Made by a program: the position numbers and the translations under genes. The notes beneath the pieces were generated by a model, which was not told the DNA's origin, did not search any database, and saw nothing but the letters and a program-made list of their open reading frames with translations. A stretch of DNA of 64,000 nucleotides. It comes from Salinibacterium sp. ZJ450 (lineage in GTDB: Bacteria > Actinomycetota > Actinomycetes > Actinomycetales > Microbacteriaceae). Location: positions 186,001 through 250,000 of the forward strand of contig NZ_CP061771.1 of the NCBI RefSeq assembly GCF_011751885.2. Direction: 5' to 3'. This document shows positions 5,761 through 44,915 of the stretch, one piece after another (positions within the stretch are counted from its first letter, which is position 1; each line of letters starts with the position of its first letter).

Positions 5761-6786
5761 CTAGTGCCGGCGCGCATCGGGGCGTGCCGTGCTGGCGCGC
5801 ACCATCAGCTCGAACGGCAGCGGCGTGTTCACCGAGCCCCGTTCGCGGCTGCCGGGATGCAGCTGGTCCATCAGGATCTCGACCGCCTTGCGGCCCTGCA
5901 GCGCCGGAAACTGCGCCACCGTGGAGAGCCCGAAGAACTCGGCGAGCTCGTGATCGTCGACCCCGATCACCGAGACATCGTCCGGCACGTGCAGGCCCAT
6001 GTCGCGGGCGGCGAGGATGGTGCCGATCGCCATCTCGTCGGATGCGGCGAAAATCGCGGTCGGCCGGTTGCGCGGGTTGCCGAGCAGTTGCTTGGCGGCG
6101 CGGTACCCGCCCTGGATGGTGAAGTCGGCGGTGTGGAACAGCTCGGGCTGCACCGGGATGCCGACCGCTTCCAGCGCGGCCTCGTAGCCAACGCGGCGGT
6201 TGGTGGGCAGGTGGAAGTCGAGCTCGAACTCCTTGTCACCGCCGATGTGTGCGATTTTCTTGTGCCCGAGCGCGATCAGGTGTTCGGTGGCGAGCCGGGC
6301 GATCTCCACGTCGTCGACGCTGAGCGTGCGCACCCCGGGCAGCGGTCCGCCGACGCCGACGATGGGCTTGTTGATGGCGAGCAGCCGGCTCACCTCGTTG
6401 GCGGTAAGTTCGAGACTCACCGCGATGACGGCATCCACCCGCTTGCGCATCAGGAAGTGCTCGAACACGCTGCGCCGCTCTTCGCCGCCGCCGCCGAGGT
6501 TGTACAGGGTGAGGTCGTAGCCGTGGCTGAGCAGCGCGGACTCTGCCCCCTCGAGCACCGAGGTGTAGAACCACCGGTCGAGGAAGGGCACCACCACGCC
6601 CACGTTCTTGGTGCGGCCGGTGGCGAGGCTGGAGGCATTCGACGAGGCGACATAGCCCAGCTCACCCGCGGCGAGCAGCACTTTCTGCCGAGTGGCCTCG
6701 AGCACGTGCCCGTTGCCGCTGAGCGCGCGCGACACGGTGGCGGTGGACACACCGGCCAGCGCGGCGACGTCGTTGATACCGGGCAT
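5761..6786 (-). CDS. LacI-family transcriptional regulator
   Basis: A 341-residue regulator. Residues 3-25 form the LacI helix-turn-helix (I-N-D-V-A-A-L-A-G-V-S-T-A-T-V-S-R-A-L), followed by the hinge and a periplasmic-binding-protein-like sugar-sensing domain ending near S-T-V-A-Q-F-P. The frame stays open upstream, but the ATG at 6786 is preceded on its strand by AAAGGAGGTG about 11 bases away and places the HTH at the start of the protein as in all LacI members. The nearest sugar genes with LacI-type operators are the GH13/malEFG set 6 kb away. A link is possible but unproven. Confidence 0.9.
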   Translation of the reverse strand: MPGINDVAALAGVSTATVSRALSGNGHVLEATRQKVLLAAGELGYVASSNASSLATGRTKNVGVVVPFLDRWFYTSVLEGAESALLSHGYDLTLYNLGGGGEERRSVFEHFLMRKRVDAVIAVSLELTANEVSRLLAINKPIVGVGGPLPGVRTLSVDDVEIARLATEHLIALGHKKIAHIGGDKEFELDFHLPTNRRVGYEAALEAVGIPVQPELFHTADFTIQGGYRAAKQLLGNPRNRPTAIFAASDEMAIGTILAARDMGLHVPDDVSVIGVDDHELAEFFGLSTVAQFPALQGRKAVEILMDQLHPGSRERGSVNTPLPFELMVRASTARPDARRH

Positions 6787-6887
6787 CCGCGACGGCACCT
6801 CCTTTGGCATTCCCTGATAGTAGCGGTGCGGCGGCGCGTGTTCGTTCCGTGTTTTCTTCGGTGGCTGGCGGTGGTCTGCGGGGCGGG

Positions 6888-6929
6888 TGCTGGGCGCTGG
6901 CGGACGGATGCTGGGCGCTGGCGGACGGA
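6888..6929 (+). repeat. Tandem duplication of a 21-bp unit
   Basis: Two exact consecutive copies of a 21-base unit that begins TGCTGGGCG and ends GGACGGA lie upstream of the LacI-type gene and 15 bp before the 86-bp repeat element at 6945. Confidence 0.8.
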
Positions 6930-6944
6930 TGCGATGGCGGGGGC

Positions 6945-7030
6945 GCGCAGAACGGCAGCATTCCGTCGCGCCACGCCGCTCAACTCGGGCGACACGCCGC
7001 TTCTCGCCGCGGATCACTGCCGTTGTACGC
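6945..7030. repeat. 86-bp palindromic intergenic element, copy 1
   Basis: Begins GCGCAGAACGGCAG and ends CTGCCGTTGTACGC, with two internal copies of an ACGCCGCT-like word. It is one of five elements in the window that are all exactly 86 bp with the same terminal inverted repeats. It lies between the divergent-side end of the LacI gene region and the stop of the AbiEi-like gene. Confidence 0.85.
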
Positions 7031-7072
7031 GGCAGCATCGCGGCATCCGCACGTCCAGGCTGGTCGCGCGGC

Positions 7073-7993
7073 TCACCTGAGGTGTTCGCCGCGGTCCATC
7101 TTTCGGAAGATCACTGCTTCGACCGTCAGCCAATCCCACATCACCTGACGGTTGCTGAACTCGAGGGTCAGAAAGCCGTACCCGTTCAGGATCGCCTCGC
7201 GGTCACGGTCCCGGTTGTAGTCGCTTGGCGAGCTGTGGTGCGCGATGCTTCCGATTTCGATCAGCATGCGGTCGCCGACCGCGAGGTCGGCGCGAATACC
7301 CTCTGCCACCCAGACTTGCGGGCGCACCGGGATTCCGGCGCGCAGGGCCCGCACTCGGGCGACCGACTCCGAGCCGGTATCGGCGCATGGCTCGACCTGG
7401 GCGAAGGTCGACTGGAACCGCGCCGGCATCCGGAGCTGGAGGGTGCGGTATTGCTCCGCCGTCATCAGTGGCCCGACCGTTTGGCCCGCAGCGTCGCGTC
7501 CAACGTGCAGCGCGGAATCGAGCATGGCGATCGCGTACTCCTCGGGCAGCGTTCGCAGGGACTGTTCGAGGCAGGTGACCAGCGGCACCACGAACGCCTC
7601 TAGATCGGGGTCGAACCTCTTGCGGTCGCGTCGCACCGCCACGCCATCGTCGGGACCGAGCGCGCGACCGAAGTCGTTGGGATGCTTGAGTTGGTGCGCG
7701 TCGGCGGCGACGCTGACGTGCAGCTTCTGGTGCGGCGGCTCCCACAATGAGTGGAACTGGGCGGCCGAGACGCCCGCCAGCGCGCCACCCACCCGCGCGG
7801 CACGGACGATGTCCGGCGGTGCCCCCGGTGCGGCATAGATTCCGCGACGCACGCGCACAATGTCGCCGCGCTGCTGAGCGCGGTGCACGGCGTCGTGCGA
7901 GTGGCCGGCAGCCAGCAGTTGGCGCGCACTCGCGACACCGCCCAGTGCCACGAGGGTGCGGAGTACGGATGCTGCTGCCACGAGTATGAGCAT
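7073..7993 (-). CDS. AbiEi antitoxin-like / DUF559-like protein
   Basis: A 306-residue protein whose N-terminal 90 residues resemble the AbiEi winged-helix antitoxin domain (V-A-L-G-G-V-A-S-A-R-Q-L then R-R-G-I-Y-A). Its C-terminus (R-A-D-L-A-V-G-D-R-M-L-I-E-I, a Y-N-R-D-R-D-R-E segment, and R-Q-V-M-W-D-W) resembles DUF559/Vsr-like nucleases. Such proteins are common orphans in Microbacteriaceae. In most relatives I recall, the core reads I-E-x-D-G, whereas here it is I-E-I-G-S, so nuclease activity may be lost. No AbiEii toxin gene is adjacent. The ATG at 7993 is the most likely start. The frame runs on upstream into an 86-bp repeat, which I do not consider coding. Confidence 0.65.
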   Translation of the reverse strand: MLILVAAASVLRTLVALGGVASARQLLAAGHSHDAVHRAQQRGDIVRVRRGIYAAPGAPPDIVRAARVGGALAGVSAAQFHSLWEPPHQKLHVSVAADAHQLKHPNDFGRALGPDDGVAVRRDRKRFDPDLEAFVVPLVTCLEQSLRTLPEEYAIAMLDSALHVGRDAAGQTVGPLMTAEQYRTLQLRMPARFQSTFAQVEPCADTGSESVARVRALRAGIPVRPQVWVAEGIRADLAVGDRMLIEIGSIAHHSSPSDYNRDRDREAILNGYGFLTLEFSNRQVMWDWLTVEAVIFRKMDRGEHLR

Positions 7994-39502: not shown

Positions 39503-40192
39503 ATGGCACAGAAGTCCAAGGCCTACCGCGCCGCGGCCGAGAAGCTCGAGCCCGGCAAGTTTTACGCCCCCACCGAGGCCGTCGCGGTTGCCCGCGAGAC
39601 CGGTGCGACCAAGCCCAACTCGACCGTTGAGGTTGCGTTGAAGCTCGGCGTCGACCCCCGCAAGGCTGACCAGATGGTCCGCGGCACCGTCATTCTTCCT
39701 CACGGTACCGGCAAGACCGCCCGCGTCATCGTCTTCGCAACCGGCCCCGCGGCCGAGGCTGCTATCGCAGCCGGCGCCGACGAGGTTGGTGGCGACGAGC
39801 TGATCGAGAAGGTGGCCGGCGGCTACACCTCGTTCGACTCGGCAGTCTCGACCCCCGAGCTCATGGGCAAGGTCGGTCGCCTCGGTAAGGTGCTGGGCCC
39901 GCGCGGCCTGATGCCGAACCCGAAGACCGGCACCGTGACCCCGGATGTCGCGAAGGCTGTCTCCGACATCAAGGGCGGAAAGATCGAGTTCCGCGTCGAC
40001 AAGCACTCCAACGTGCACTTCGTGATCGGCAAGGCGAACTTCACCGCCGAGCAGCTCGACGAGAACCTGAAGTCGGCTCTCGACGAGATCGTGCGTCTGA
40101 AGCCGTCGAGCTCGAAGGGCCGCTACGTGCTGAAGGGCGCCCTGTCGACCACGTTCGGCCCCGGCATCCCGCTGGACGTCAACGCCATCTAG
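39503..40192 (+). CDS. rplA: 50S ribosomal protein L1
   Basis: A 229-residue protein with the typical start [11 protein letters not shown]. The signature region [17 protein letters not shown] is near residue 131, and the C-terminus G-P-G-I-P-L-D-V-N is also typical. It forms the L1 stalk and in other bacteria represses its own mRNA. TTTTTAGGAGAACAAC precedes the ATG. A strong hairpin after the gene ends the transcription unit. Confidence 0.97.
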
Positions 40193-40209
40193 CTAACAGC
40201 TAACAGCGC

Positions 40210-40509
40210 TCAGTTAGACAGAGAAGGGTCCGCCATCTGGCGGGCCCTTCTTTCGTTGTGCTCGGCCAGCTTGCGATCGTCCATCCCGGAGCCGCGCGTG
40301 ATGAGATACGCGAGCACCGGGAGGAGGGGAACCAGGAGCAGGAAGAATATCCACAGCGCTTGGTACCAGCCGCTCAGCGAAGGGTCGCGCATGAGGTCGG
40401 CGATCACCCAGAGCAACGGCATGAGGTACACGAGCAGGATGAGGGTGGCGACGATAAACAGCGCGCCGAAAAATATGATCACTTCCATGATCACTTCATA
40501 GAGCCCCAT
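40210..40509 (-). CDS. PLDc_N-domain small membrane protein
   Basis: A 99-residue protein with two membrane segments (about residues 9-34 and 47-70) separated by W-V-I-A-D-L-M-R-D-P-S-L-S-G-W, which resembles the phospholipase D N-terminal transmembrane domain. The C-terminal tail G-S-G-M-D-D-R-K-L-A-E-H-N-E-R-R-A is cytoplasmic. No catalytic HKD domain is present. GGAGAGGG precedes ATG 40509. Its last codons contain the rplA terminator hairpin. Confidence 0.8.
   Translation of the reverse strand: MGLYEVIMEVIIFFGALFIVATLILLVYLMPLLWVIADLMRDPSLSGWYQALWIFFLLLVPLLPVLAYLITRGSGMDDRKLAEHNERRARQMADPSLSN
40223..40255 (+). terminator. Rho-independent terminator of the secE-rplA unit
   Basis: GAAGGG-T-CCGCC ATCT GGCGG-G-CCCTTC forms an 11-bp stem with one internal T-G mismatch/wobble, followed by TTTCG. 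It lies within the 3' coding end of the convergent membrane protein gene. Confidence 0.82.
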
Positions 40510-40695
40510 GAATCCCTCTCCTTCGCCAGCCAGCCTGGCTCTAAACTGTGCCGGGGGATGCCGGGCGTGGCAACCCTCTGTGAAGTTTCGGCTTAGGTTG
40601 CCCGGTTGCAGCCCCCGGTGGTCGGCAGTACCCTGACCGTGAACGGCGGGTGCAGGCCCTCCCGCCGCGACCTGCATCATGGGCGAGCAAGCATC

Positions 40696-42333
40696 ATGAC
40701 ATCCGCGACCGAGCTGGATCGCGGTCGCGCCGCGTACGTCGACCGTCAGTGGACCGAGGCCGTCGCCCGGTTCGCCGACGCTGACCGCTCGGAGGCACTC
40801 GCCGCCGATGACATGATGCGGTTGTCGACGTCGGCCACCATGGTGGGTGACGTCGTGGCAGGTACCGATTTCCTCACCCGCGCGCACGAGAAGTATTTGG
40901 CGGCGGGCGACCTCCGCGGCGCGGTGCGGGCCGCGTCCTGGCTCGGCCTGCAATTCCAGAACTCGGGTGACCGCGCGCAAAGCGCCGGGTGGTTTGCCCG
41001 AGCGCAACGCCTCGTCGAGGAGGACCCGGATGACGACTACCTGCCGGGGATGCCGCTGATCGGCGCCGCACTGGTCACCATGTATGGCTCCGGAGACGCG
41101 ACAGGCGCCCTGGCGTTGTTCGAGCGGGCCGCCCAGATCGGTGCGCGGTTCGATGACCCCGACCTGCTCGCCCTCGGTCGGCTGGGGTACGGGCAGGCCT
41201 CCGTGATCCTCGGCGATGTGACCACGGGTCTTCGCGCGCTCGATGAGGCGATGGTCTCGGTCACCGCCGGTGAGGTGTCGCCGATCCCGTCTGGCATCAT
41301 CTACTGCGCCGTGATCGGCACCTGCCACCTGGCGTTCGACGTGCGCCGCGCATACGAGTGGACCCTCGCCCTCGACCACTGGTGCGACACCCAGCCGGAT
41401 CTGGTGAACTTCAGCGGGCAGTGCCAGGCACATCGCGCGGCCCTGTTCTTACTGCATGGCGCGTGGGCCGAGGCCCTGGTGGCCGCCGAAACGGCGCAAG
41501 ACCTGTTTCGGCGCGGCGACCGAGCCGCCGGCTTCGGGGCGTTCTATCAACAGGGCGAGGTGCTTCGCCGACGCGGCGAGTTCGACGCCGCGGAGCTGTG
41601 CTTCCGGGAAGCCGGCCGATCGGGATGGGATCCGCAGCCAGGCTTGGCGCTGCTACAGCTCGCACGCGGCAATGTGGCCCAGGCGCAGTCGCAGATCCAG
41701 CGCGCGGCGGACAGTGCCGACCCCGCGACCCGCCGCCAGTTGCTGCCGGCGATGGCCGAGATCATGCTGGCGGCCGCGGATGTCGCGGGAGCACGGGCTG
41801 CGGCGGACGAGTTCGCGGCAATCGCGGAACAGAATCCCATGCCGCTGCTGTTGGCCACGGCCGCCCAGACCGACGGCGCCGTGCTGGTCGCCGAGCGCAG
41901 GCCGAGCGACGCGCTTGGCAGGCTGCGCGGGGCCGTGCTGCTCTGGCGCGAACTCGAGGCGCCATACGAGGAAGGCGAGTGCCGGATGCTGATGGGACGC
42001 GCCTGCCGTGCCCTCGGCGACGACGACTCGACCGTCATGGAGTTCGACACCGCCCGCAGCATCTTCGCCGAACTCGGTGCAAAGCCTGCCCTCGCCGAGC
42101 TCGACGCCCTGGCGCGCGCTCACCAGGAGGACGCCCGAGGTCCGCTCACCGCCCGGGAGATCGAGGTGCTACGGCTGGTTTCGGCCGGGCTCACCAACCG
42201 TCAGGTGGCCGAGCGGCTGTACCTGAGCGAGAAGACCGTGGCGCGCCATCTGAGCAATATCTTCACGAAACTCGACCTGCCGTCGAGGGCGGCGGCGACG
42301 GCGTACGCCTACGAGCACCAGTTGGTGTCGTAA
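40696..42333 (+). CDS. LuxR-type transcriptional regulator with TPR-like repeats
   Basis: About 545 residues. The first 470 are helical hairpin repeats of TPR type (for example G-D-L-R-G-A-V-R-A-A-S-W-L-G-L and A-L-A-L-F-E-R-A). The C-terminal LuxR DNA-binding domain reads L-T-A-R-E-I-E-V-L-R-L-V-S-A-G-L-T-N-R-Q-V-A near residue 482 and E-K-T-V-A-R-H-L-S-N-I-F-T-K-L. There is no P-loop ATPase, unlike MalT/LAL regulators. ATG 40696 was preferred over an upstream TTG at 40606. It precedes a PEBP gene by 26 bp and probably regulates the following small operon. Confidence 0.85.
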   Translation: MTSATELDRGRAAYVDRQWTEAVARFADADRSEALAADDMMRLSTSATMVGDVVAGTDFLTRAHEKYLAAGDLRGAVRAASWLGLQFQNSGDRAQSAGWFARAQRLVEEDPDDDYLPGMPLIGAALVTMYGSGDATGALALFERAAQIGARFDDPDLLALGRLGYGQASVILGDVTTGLRALDEAMVSVTAGEVSPIPSGIIYCAVIGTCHLAFDVRRAYEWTLALDHWCDTQPDLVNFSGQCQAHRAALFLLHGAWAEALVAAETAQDLFRRGDRAAGFGAFYQQGEVLRRRGEFDAAELCFREAGRSGWDPQPGLALLQLARGNVAQAQSQIQRAADSADPATRRQLLPAMAEIMLAAADVAGARAAADEFAAIAEQNPMPLLLATAAQTDGAVLVAERRPSDALGRLRGAVLLWRELEAPYEEGECRMLMGRACRALGDDDSTVMEFDTARSIFAELGAKPALAELDALARAHQEDARGPLTAREIEVLRLVSAGLTNRQVAERLYLSEKTVARHLSNIFTKLDLPSRAAATAYAYEHQLVS

Positions 42334-42359
42334 CTGCTCTTCCCGAGATTGGAGCCGGC

Positions 42360-42803
42360 ATGGAACTCAGTTCGTCAGCATTCGCCTCGGCGCAGCCGAT
42401 CCCGGAGCGGCACGGCAAGAGAGCGGGCAACGCGTCTCCGTCGCTGTCGTGGACCGGCGTTCCGGCTGGCACACGATCCTTCGCTCTATCGGCTCTGGAT
42501 CGAATCTCACCCGGCAACGTGTACGTGCACTGGCTGGCCTGCGACATCCCGGGCACGGTCACGGCTCTGGATGACGACGCTTCGGGATCCGGTCGGATGC
42601 CGGAGGGCTCCCGGGAGCTGACGCGGTATGTCGGGCCGTTTCCGCCGTCGGGCACGCACACATACGAGTTCACGCTGTACGCCCTGGACACCGATCGCCT
42701 CGATCTGGCCGCCGGGGTCTCGCTGCCTGCGTTCGAGCGGGCGGTGAATGGGCACACCCTCGACGCCGCGACGCTGTCTGGCACATTCAAGGCGCGCGGG
42801 TAG
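42360..42803 (+). CDS. YbhB/YbcL-family (PEBP-like) protein
   Basis: A 147-residue protein of the phosphatidylethanolamine-binding/Raf-kinase-inhibitor-like family. The family signature N-x-S-P-x-L-x-W appears as N-A-S-P-S-L-S-W at residues 24-31, then H-W-L-A-C-D-I-P and the G-P-x-P-P-x-G-T-H-x-Y-x-F-x-L-Y-A-L motif near residues 95-112. Bacterial members are soluble, with unclear ligand. GGAGCC sits just before ATG 42360. Confidence 0.92.
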   Translation: MELSSSAFASAQPIPERHGKRAGNASPSLSWTGVPAGTRSFALSALDRISPGNVYVHWLACDIPGTVTALDDDASGSGRMPEGSRELTRYVGPFPPSGTHTYEFTLYALDTDRLDLAAGVSLPAFERAVNGHTLDAATLSGTFKARG

Positions 42804-42895
42804 GGCCGTATGCGCAGAATTACCCACGCCGCCCCGGCGCGAAATGGGTGATTCGGCCGACGAACGTTGGCAGTTGCGTTCCTAATGTTGCTGGC

Positions 42896-43213
42896 ATGAA
42901 CCTCCCGATCATCGCCGGCACCATTTCCACGGTGCTGTTTGCCGCGAGCATGCTGCCCATGCTCGCGAAGGCCGCCAGAACCCGCGACCTGGCCTCGTAC
43001 AGCCTGAGCAACCTCGCCCTGACGAACTTCGCCAACCTGGTGCACACGGCCTATGTCGCCAGCCTTCCCACCGGACCGATCTGGCTGCTGCACGGCTTCT
43101 ACGTTGTGGCATCCGCTCTGATGCTCGCCTGGTTCTTGCGATATCACGCCCGCGACCGTGCGGAAGGAACGGTCGAGGCACCCACTCTGCACATTCTGGA
43201 GCACGCATCATGA
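42896..43213 (+). CDS. Three-TM PQ-loop/SemiSWEET-like membrane protein
   Basis: A 105-residue protein with three membrane segments (about residues 4-22, 41-60 and 64-83), the size and topology of a SemiSWEET/PQ-loop half transporter. Conserved P in M-L-P-M-L near residue 20 and N in F-A-N-L-V near residue 47 fit, but the full PQ motif is not clear, so the family call is moderate. Its stop overlaps the flavoprotein start (ATGA), coupling the two. Confidence 0.65.
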   Translation: MNLPIIAGTISTVLFAASMLPMLAKAARTRDLASYSLSNLALTNFANLVHTAYVASLPTGPIWLLHGFYVVASALMLAWFLRYHARDRAEGTVEAPTLHILEHAS

Positions 43214-44370
43214 CTACTCACACACCCCCTGTCCACCCGTCCGCCAACCCGGAAACGGTGGACACCGCCATCATCGGTGGCGGTCAGGCGGGGCTTGCCC
43301 TCGCCCACTATCTGGCCCGGCACGGCGACGACTTCGTCGTGCTGGACGCGAACGACCGCGTCGGCGACGCCTGGCGGCAACGCTGGGACTCGCTGCGGCT
43401 GTTCACGCCCGCCAAGTTCGACGGGCTGCCGGGCATGAGATTCCCCGGTGACCGGCTGGCGTTCCCCACCAAGGACGAACAGGCCGCCTACCTCGAGGCC
43501 TACGCCGAACGCGAGCAGCTTCCCATCAGGAACGGGGTGCGGGTTGACGGGGTGCACCGGGACGGCCCCTTCTTCGTGCTCGAGGCCGCCGGTCACCGGT
43601 GGCGTTCGCGCAACCTGGTCGTCGCGACGGGCAGCTACCAGGTGCCGAGAATCCCGGCGTTCGCAAACCGGTTGGCGCCGACGATCACCCAGCTGCACTC
43701 CATCGCCTACCGCAACCCGGATCAGCTGCCACCCGGTGAGGTGCTGGTGGTCGGGTTGGGCAACTCCGGCGCCGAGATCGCGCTCGAGGTGAGCCGCACA
43801 CATCCCACCGTGCTGGCCGCGCGGCCCGGCAGGGAATTGCCGATCCGCCATGGGCGTACCGCGGCTCGATTCGCGTTGCCTGTCATTCGCTTCGTCGGCC
43901 TGCACGTGCTGAACCATCGCTCGCCGATCGGCCGACGGGTGCTGCCGATACTGGAGCGAGAGGCGACACCGCTGATTCGCACCAAGCGTCGGGATCTCGA
44001 GCGCGCCGGAGTGCGCTTCGCGGCCCGCATCGCGGACGTGCGGGACGGCCTTCCGGTGACCGAGGATGGCGACATCCTGAACCCCTCTGCAGTGATCTGG
44101 TGCACGGGGTATGCCGAAGAGTACGGCTGGCTGAGCCTTCCGGCGGTGGACTCGGAGGGTCGGCTCGCGCAGCGCCGCGGGGTCTCCAGCACGGTTCCCG
44201 GCCTGTACTTCCTCGGGCAGGAATTGCTGTTCTCGATTGTCTCTGCGACTCTCCCCGGCGTCGGCCGGGACGCCCGCTACATCGCGCGGCAGGTGCACCG
44301 CCGGCGTGACGCGACCCTCGGCGCGCCGTCGTTCACGCAGCTGCGGAGCCGTAAGCTCGAAAGGGTATGA
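43210..44370 (+). CDS. Flavin-containing monooxygenase-like oxidoreductase
   Basis: A 386-residue FAD/NAD(P)H protein. The FAD motif I-I-G-G-G-Q-A-G-L-A is near residues 20-29, V-V-L-D-A-N-D-R-V-G-D-A-W-R is near residue 44, a V-V-A-T-G-S-Y motif follows, and the NADP Rossmann V-V-G-L-G-N-S-G-A-E is near residue 179. A C-terminal W-C-T-G-Y is present. This is the CzcO/YUCCA-like group, which oxidises small nucleophiles or acts as a diaphorase. The true substrate is unknown. It is coupled by ATGA overlaps on both sides, to the PQ-loop and GNAT genes. Confidence 0.87.
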   Translation: MTTHTPPVHPSANPETVDTAIIGGGQAGLALAHYLARHGDDFVVLDANDRVGDAWRQRWDSLRLFTPAKFDGLPGMRFPGDRLAFPTKDEQAAYLEAYAEREQLPIRNGVRVDGVHRDGPFFVLEAAGHRWRSRNLVVATGSYQVPRIPAFANRLAPTITQLHSIAYRNPDQLPPGEVLVVGLGNSGAEIALEVSRTHPTVLAARPGRELPIRHGRTAARFALPVIRFVGLHVLNHRSPIGRRVLPILEREATPLIRTKRRDLERAGVRFAARIADVRDGLPVTEDGDILNPSAVIWCTGYAEEYGWLSLPAVDSEGRLAQRRGVSSTVPGLYFLGQELLFSIVSATLPGVGRDARYIARQVHRRRDATLGAPSFTQLRSRKLERV

Positions 44371-44915
44371 GCACTCACGAGACGTCAACGATCACGGTGC
44401 GCCACGCCGAGCCAACGGATGCCGCTGCCCTCCACGTCGTCGCGGGGGAGACGTTCGCGCTCGCCTGCCCTCCCGGCACCCAGCAGCCCGACATCGATGC
44501 GTTCATCGCGGAACACCTGTCCGAAGAGAAGTTTCGGCTCCATCTCGCCGATCCCGACCGGGCGCTGCTCATCGCCGAGGTGAACGGCGTCGTCGCCGGG
44601 TACACCATGCTCGTGTTCGGGGAGCCGCAGGATGCGGATGTCGCCAAGGCGATCACCGTGCGACCGACCGCGGAGCTGAGCAAGTGCTACGTGCTCTCCA
44701 CCCAGCACGGACACGGAGTTGCATCCCACCTGATCGCCCAGAGCGTCGAGATGGCCCACCAGCGCGGCGCCGTCGCGGTGTGGCTGGGGGTCAACCAGCA
44801 GAACGAACGCGCCAACCGGTTCTACGAGAAGAACGGGTTCACCAGGGTGGGCGAGAAGCGCTTCCTGGTCGGCTCGGAATGGCACGAAGACTTCGTGCGG
44901 GAGCGCGTGCTCTAG
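44367..44915 (+). CDS. GNAT-family N-acetyltransferase
   Basis: A 182-residue acetyltransferase. The acetyl-CoA loop appears in a variant form, T-Q-H-G-H-G-V-A-S-H-L near residues 112-122, in place of the standard Q/R-x-x-G-x-G/A. W-L-G-V-N-Q-Q-N-E-R-A-N-R-F-Y-E-K-N-G-F near residues 139-158 is the conserved GNAT C-terminal region. The substrate is unknown. It is the last gene of the LuxR/PEBP/PQ-loop/flavoprotein string. It ends on CTAG, which is a stop on both strands. Confidence 0.9.
   Translation: MSTHETSTITVRHAEPTDAAALHVVAGETFALACPPGTQQPDIDAFIAEHLSEEKFRLHLADPDRALLIAEVNGVVAGYTMLVFGEPQDADVAKAITVRPTAELSKCYVLSTQHGHGVASHLIAQSVEMAHQRGAVAVWLGVNQQNERANRFYEKNGFTRVGEKRFLVGSEWHEDFVRERVL

Follow-up and report, generated by a model that had tools for sequence, protein, structure and literature searches.

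What do five genes that follow one another closely on one strand, and whose products belong to five different families, do together? The question is raised by a 64,000-nucleotide stretch of Salinibacterium sp. ZJ450 (NZ_CP061771.1, positions 186,001 to 250,000; here called the window), which carries in succession genes for a TPR-LuxR regulator, a phosphatidylethanolamine-binding protein (PEBP), a small PQ-loop protein (PQ), a flavin-containing monooxygenase (FMO) and a GNAT acetyltransferase. A sequence-only reading had placed these genes, noted four-base overlaps between the last three, and proposed that the set would fit the uptake or release, together with modification, of one small molecule. 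The coordinates bear out the places and the overlaps: PQ and FMO share an ATGA at 43210-43213, and FMO and GNAT share another at 44367-44370. The set of five held up in part. Regulator, PQ and flavoprotein are found together across families and in differing gene orders; among the loci examined, PEBP adjoins PQ in the window only, and GNAT accompanies it only in the window, in a congener (L029) and at L051 of Cryobacterium sp. BB307, a locus in which no FMO was found. As judged from gene neighbourhoods, the conserved core is TPR-LuxR, PQ and FMO rather than one conserved five-gene string. We consider it highly probable that the regulator, a shared operator and the PQ, FMO and methyltransferase genes described below are linked, and we favour the view that they make up a small, locally regulated, TPR-LuxR-activated cassette for the response to a small molecule.

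PQ proved to be sparsely distributed. With the window's own genome counted, it was found at E<=0.001 in 3 of 59 genomes and in 22 of 396 genomes of the order, one of these matches (G287) being marginal. A scan of named genomes gave 164 relatives; the best 80 of them, which were kept, come from Agromyces, Arthrobacter, Kribbella, Nocardioides, Sinomonas, Knoellia, Tessaracoccus, others, and a few Chloroflexi metagenome-assembled genomes. We examined 103 loci and counted 94, retaining those near contig ends. Seven were left out as repeat genomes (L055, L064, L074, L097, L100, L123 and L124) and L050 for its fragmentary PQ match; L113 was dropped without good reason; with no operator (2.3 bits) and a weak LuxR match (5.7e-15), it would fall among the loci without partners.

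We clustered the reading frames within 6 kb of PQ without preselecting families. The commonest coding neighbour was a TPR-LuxR gene (65 of the 94 loci, 72 copies) and the second an FMO gene (42 loci, 43 copies), with every copy of both on the PQ strand; a methyltransferase gene was found in 13 loci. A 63-locus antisense cluster was set aside as shadow frames opposite coding genes; annotation was limited to the first 14 clusters. When neighbours were called by score thresholds, a same-strand TPR-LuxR gene lay no more than 3 kb from PQ in 64 of the 94 loci. Within that distance, 37 loci had LuxR and FMO, 12 LuxR and the methyltransferase, 15 LuxR only, 3 FMO only, and 27 none of these. The commonest orders were LuxR-PQ-FMO (17), PQ-FMO-LuxR (15), LuxR-PQ (12) and LuxR-PQ-methyltransferase (7), and the LuxR-linked loci showed 12 different arrangements in all. 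Gene order thus varies with membership kept, which favours a link through function over synteny that has simply been frozen. The outcome that, by the sequence-only reading, would refute its proposal, namely that the genes are neighbours in no relative, did not come about: LuxR, PQ and FMO co-occur across relatives.

The regions ahead of PQ gave a second line of evidence. An unsupervised motif search returned a 24-bp proximal element, AAATGGGTGATTCGCCCGAYGCGG. It scored above 13 bits in 71 loci, lying 29-31 bp before the aligned PQ start in 38 of them and at 40 bp in 11, where the start had been set a few codons late. The element is followed by a TAGCGT-like -10 hexamer, often about 7 bases before the ATG (47 promoters); in some loci the leader is longer. 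Because the -10 hexamer lies only about 7 bases from the ATG, the PQ message is probably leaderless, that of the window included. With the A of the ATG taken as +1, the element reaches from -54 to -31, where class II activators have their site. In 54 of 68 promoters there is a second, distal part, cTGCgtcgAAcnaCCCAt, either 12-15 bp (40) or 25-27 bp (12) farther upstream; its motif total was 928, compared with 360-385 in six shuffles, for which the search used half the number of seeds. The AAATGGGTGATT of the site fits, letter by letter, the consensus of Bacillus subtilis GerE (RWWTRGGYNNYY), and in this it resembles operators of GerE-type LuxR proteins; for the remainder of the site we know of no counterpart. 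The proximal core occurs once in the 3.83-Mb genome of the window at up to 3 mismatches.

These data also bear on how the string is transcribed. The gap between the LuxR and PEBP genes is 26 bp, and that between PEBP and PQ is 92 bp (42804-42895). The latter holds the conserved promoter, and the five-gene string would therefore probably form two transcription units. A scan for sigma-70 consensus promoters found none ahead of PQ, and no terminator was found there either. The sequence-only reading had proposed to check regulator binding upstream of 42360; the conserved promoter lies before 42896 instead.

Does the candidate operator go with the regulator and the cassette genes? The motif scores above 18 bits ahead of PQ in 67 of the 94 loci, these upstream regions being the set on which it was trained. 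Elsewhere in these loci, which together span 2.88 million positions, only 12 sites score above 18 bits, and 10 of them directly precede FMO (7) or methyltransferase (3) genes; of the remaining two, that in L039 is probably a chance match and that in L099 precedes a gene outside our panel. The L099 operator scores 22.6 bits and lies at +292 from PQ, and the gene behind it matches no panel protein. Sites above 13 bits were present in 58 of the 64 loci with an adjacent LuxR gene, as against 13 of the 30 without one (Fisher p 2e-6, a nominal value, the rows being related by descent). A strict form of the pattern matched 2 of the 396 genomes of the order, both times before FMO genes. We also built a promoter sequence profile from 47 PQ promoters and ran it on the 396 genomes. 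Of its 19 matches of at least 35 bits, 7 were training promoters, and the other 12 lead PQ (3, assigned by position before PQ matches), FMO (4), methyltransferase (3) and ATP-binding cassette (ABC) ATPase (2) genes. Matches that covered only the -10 part of the profile (model position 15 or later) and scored below 35 bits were not counted; such -10-only matches lead other genes, often ABC ATPases by the look of their Walker A motif. Finally, among nine motif-found loci without PQ, which we chose ourselves, eight (L167-L172, L174 and L175) have an FMO or methyltransferase gene with an adjacent TPR-LuxR gene on the same strand. Taken at the level of sequence, the operator of other genomes fronts PQ, FMO or Rv2258c-like methyltransferase genes.

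Several observations weigh against a circuit of this kind. None of the three partners lies within 3 kb of 27 of the 94 PQ genes, and PQ may therefore have another role. Six of the 64 LuxR-linked loci lack an operator above 13 bits, the 13 loci mentioned above have one with no LuxR gene within 3 kb, and the FMO genes of L030-L033 follow a second LuxR gene and have no recognisable operator. The strict pattern matched none of 394 genomes at class level, and it missed the window's own site. Profile matches at E<=0.01 were found in 206 of the 396 genomes, many of them partial, and two of at least 35 bits lead ABC ATPase genes (L145, refetched as L173, and L151); L173, the ninth of the chosen loci without PQ, has neither an FMO or methyltransferase gene nor a LuxR gene. 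Dyad symmetry upstream of the proximal site, at 4.4% compared with 3.3% in shuffles, was not significant.

The C-terminus of the regulator contains a LuxR-type helix-turn-helix (HTH) domain (Pfam GerE, PF00196: 63.9 bits, cut-off 23.5, E 1e-17), and its AlphaFold model (mean predicted local distance difference test score, pLDDT, 94.9) shows a helical-hairpin solenoid over residues 3-479 followed by the terminal HTH. TPR proteins are among the best PDB matches of the model, in keeping with a TPR solenoid; the Pfam model TPR_12 stayed under its cut-off. In a tree of 72 regulators, those linked to the methyltransferase and those linked to FMO are split at 100/100 support; rows lacking both enzymes number 1 among the former and 15 among the latter. 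The program warned of long branches in this tree, L076 foremost. An architecture of TPR plus LuxR has been given for regulators of a few actinobacterial species in PMC3466318. The words operator, monooxygenase and methyltransferase do not occur in the main text of that paper.

Three further homologues of the regulator are encoded in the window's genome, at 31-33% identity over most of their length. Their loci hold no operator site above 13 bits, and their neighbours are SnoaL-like or hydrolase genes. Two near-alike TPR-LuxR genes lie about 22 kb apart (L164, 963500-973500; L165, 985500-995500), each followed by a SnoaL-like gene (in L164 by likeness), so that the same type of regulator stands beside another enzyme; the third (L166, 2754500-2764500) is divergent from an alpha/beta hydrolase gene.

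The enzymes of the cassette are of recognisable families. The window flavoprotein matches the Pfam models Pyr_redox_3 and FMO-like, and its residues 7-366 align with residues 4-358 of 4usq (E 7e-46); the match to 4usr (E 2e-40) is likewise near full length. We take 4usq and 4usr to be CFMO and PSFMO, and 4a9w to be SMFMO. The flavin oxygenase of the sequence-only reading can thus be placed, by alignment, near the type II FMOs, which it resembles over almost the whole chain and from which it differs by its TPR-LuxR and PQ context. Enzymes of this type are reported in PMC4220118 to have been tested on sulfides. An identity as ArsO (NF040505) was rejected, the score of 213.4 bits being half of the cut-off of 425. 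In one motif-found locus, L170, the operator leads an FMO frame (6431-7633) whose first residues, MELPIL, are like the PQ start, as though an in-frame deletion had removed PQ. At L037, L061 and L065 the DNA ahead of PQ reads like the C-terminus of a berberine-bridge-type FAD-linked oxidase, which would be a further flavoenzyme next to PQ.

The alternative enzyme of other loci is a methyltransferase that matches 5f8c, presumably Rv2258c, at E 4e-128 and carries the Pfam domain HTH_65 ('Rv2258c-like winged HTH'); it resembles the Rv2258c-like methyltransferases, of which the window's cassette has none. The GNAT protein matches Pfam Acetyltransf_1 and scores 73.9 bits with the model for PaiA spermidine acetyltransferase (NF053587), under its cut-off of 250.

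On these grounds we propose the following mechanism. The TPR-LuxR protein would be an activator that binds the two-part operator, the proximal part replacing a -35 element, and that turns on a promoter which has a TANNNT -10 box and yields a leaderless message. In the window, this promoter would give one message for PQ, FMO and GNAT, coupled through the ATGA overlaps. By the nature of its family, FMO would transfer oxygen to a soft nucleophile, an S or N atom, in a small molecule, and the methyltransferase or GNAT would mask that heteroatom in another way. PQ may be a dimeric carrier of the SemiSWEET type that takes the substrate or product rather than a sugar across the membrane, most likely outwards, and the TPR solenoid may sense the compound or a partner. 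Detoxification plus export is a conceivable purpose, which we put forward tentatively. A comparably tentative reading is that the loci represent a wide and so far undescribed actinobacterial regulon, in which TPR-LuxR proteins with their own two-part operator govern a swappable FMO, methyltransferase or sometimes GNAT and a non-sugar branch of the SemiSWEET fold with pocket histidines, as a minimal means to modify and export a sensed, heteroatom-bearing compound. In the openly licensed papers that we searched, we found no published description of the set of regulator, operator, PQ and FMO. Each part comes from a known family; what seems not to have been described is the circuit and the branch of carriers. 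One probable circuit with a defined operator would join TPR-LuxR regulators, minimal PQ-loop proteins and stand-alone type II FMOs, all of them little characterised, and the operator offers a direct route toward inducers and substrates.

The main rival to a response cassette is that the same genes serve signalling or biosynthesis: FMO, methyltransferase or GNAT would tailor an endogenous metabolite, PQ would export it, and the TPR-LuxR protein would act as an amplifier or as the receptor of that metabolite. The methyltransferase also resembles TnmJ (8g5s, E 2.5e-46), which we take to be a natural-product enzyme, and the neighbours of the regulator's paralogues in the window's genome, SnoaL-like genes (L165; L164 by likeness) and an alpha/beta hydrolase gene (L166), would suit such a role. 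Against it, the type of enzyme is swapped between loci, and no synthase or core biosynthetic family was recognised in the first 14 neighbour clusters, a weak point, most of these clusters being unannotated or shadow frames. We regard this explanation as unlikely, though it survives best among the alternatives.

It is also conceivable that an alternative sigma factor uses the motif as its promoter, with the LuxR gene a mere neighbour. The position of the motif near -35 and its tight spacing to the -10 hexamer are what such a promoter would show. However, the -10 hexamer fits the TANNNT of housekeeping-type promoters, and a distal second part exists, at two spacings. In addition, the presence of the motif tracks LuxR, which stands next door in eight of the nine chosen loci without PQ, and the window's genome has a single site. 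We therefore consider this explanation improbable.

Is PQ then simply a SemiSWEET sugar carrier, and are the other genes part of sugar metabolism? The 105-aa protein has no Pfam match at E<=0.01. Profile support for the PQ family is weak: at E<=1, 10 of 20 members matched the PQ-loop model and 8 of 20 the MtN3 model (best E 0.0008 and 0.003), and the window protein scores 16.3 bits with MtN3_slv, under the cut-off of 23.7. Its AlphaFold model (mean pLDDT 90.2) is a three-helix bundle with the SemiSWEET fold. Foldseek gave SemiSWEET rows with query template-modelling (TM) scores of 0.58-0.84, and in VIA comparisons the model reached Z 11.6 over 91-92 residues with 4x5m and 4x5n (root-mean-square deviation 2.0-2.3). 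Across 4qnc, 5uhs, 4x5m and 4x5n, Z was 10.2-11.6, and it was at most 8.0 for SWEET, MPC and the KDEL receptor. Two points caution against this assignment, a best Foldseek E of 0.02 and the fact that VIA Z values under about 13 can be common among helical bundles; the SemiSWEET rows still top the others. The three-helix membrane carrier of the sequence-only reading thus agrees with the modelled fold, and a common fold of PQ and SemiSWEETs proves no function.

PQ resembles the SemiSWEETs (LbSemiSWEET, 4qnc; 4x5m and 4x5n) in its three helices and fold, and keeps equivalents of LbSemiSWEET Gly6, Pro19, Ser34, Tyr51 and Pro59, in a register set by a weak ungapped profile match and the structural ranges of 4qnc (offset 2). 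It differs in the motif of helix 1, in which the Pro is kept and the Gln replaced by Met (PM for PQ) in all 94 loci, and in the pocket. The LbSemiSWEET pocket contains Trp48, Asn64 and Thr13, as given in the review PMC5972207. The equivalent of Trp48 is His in 75 of the 94 loci, Tyr in 17 and Gln in 2; that of Asn64 is His in 93, with one gap; and that of Thr13 is Phe in all 94. Because these pocket equivalents are replaced, a sugar is an unlikely substrate of PQ, as far as sequence can tell. Moreover, the enzymes found to accompany PQ are flavin monooxygenases or methyltransferases, unlike the contexts of carbohydrate metabolism that PMC5972207 names for SemiSWEETs. An ordinary sugar carrier is thus very improbable, the shared fold notwithstanding, and the data suggest that bacteria have put the SemiSWEET fold to non-sugar use.

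Least probable of all is that the five genes are neighbours by chance, which is contradicted for the core three, since LuxR, PQ and FMO come together repeatedly, in different gene orders and different families, and share an operator, and which may hold for PEBP, not a conserved neighbour, as GNAT is not outside its three loci. The PEBP itself is a clear member of its family (Pfam PBP, E 1.3e-31; TIGR00481, YbhB/YbcL, 97.5 bits, cut-off 57.75). Adjoining PQ in the window alone, it was rejected as a core member and is probably, by its distribution, a local insertion.

Table. Features of the window described in the text, with positions counted from its first nucleotide.
Feature	Position	Strand	Remarks
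TPR-LuxR regulator, 545 aa	40696-42333	+	TPR-like solenoid, GerE/LuxR HTH at C-terminus
PEBP, YbhB/YbcL type, 147 aa	42360-42803	+	Between regulator and promoter
Candidate operator, distal part, TGCGCAGAATTACCCA	42811-42826	+	Window copy chosen by eye
Candidate operator, proximal part, AAATGGGTGATTCGGCCGACGAAC	42842-42865	+	Overlaps -35 position; motif score 25.8 bits
-10 hexamer TAATGT	42883-42888	+	7 nt ahead of PQ ATG
Divergent PQ-loop/SemiSWEET-fold protein, 105 aa from ATG, three helices, PM for PQ	42896-43213	+	
Type II FMO-like NAD(P)/FAD monooxygenase, 386 aa	43210-44370	+	Pfam and structure-database alignment
PaiA-like GNAT acetyltransferase, 182 aa, translationally coupled, lineage-limited	44367-44915	+	

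The surroundings of the cassette offer some minor points. In the window (39503-42333), rplA comes ahead of the regulator, as it does in L029, L044, L045, L051 and L054, all of the window's family; in these loci the cassette is therefore placed behind ribosomal protein genes. A blastn search of plasmids (20 of 50 records listed) gave 19 matches in the FMO part and 1 in the part encoding the regulator HTH, and among the matches listed no record covers 80% of the query. A defence system was considered and rejected, the PADLOC matches being limited to the regulator HTH and to 34 matched N-terminal residues of FMO. Lastly, a different promoter, conserved and leaderless by its look (TAGCGTCGAAGGCATG and variants), lies ahead of an ABC ATPase gene, assigned by its Walker A motif, in L145, L151, L157-L159 and L163, loci from several genomes within the window's family.

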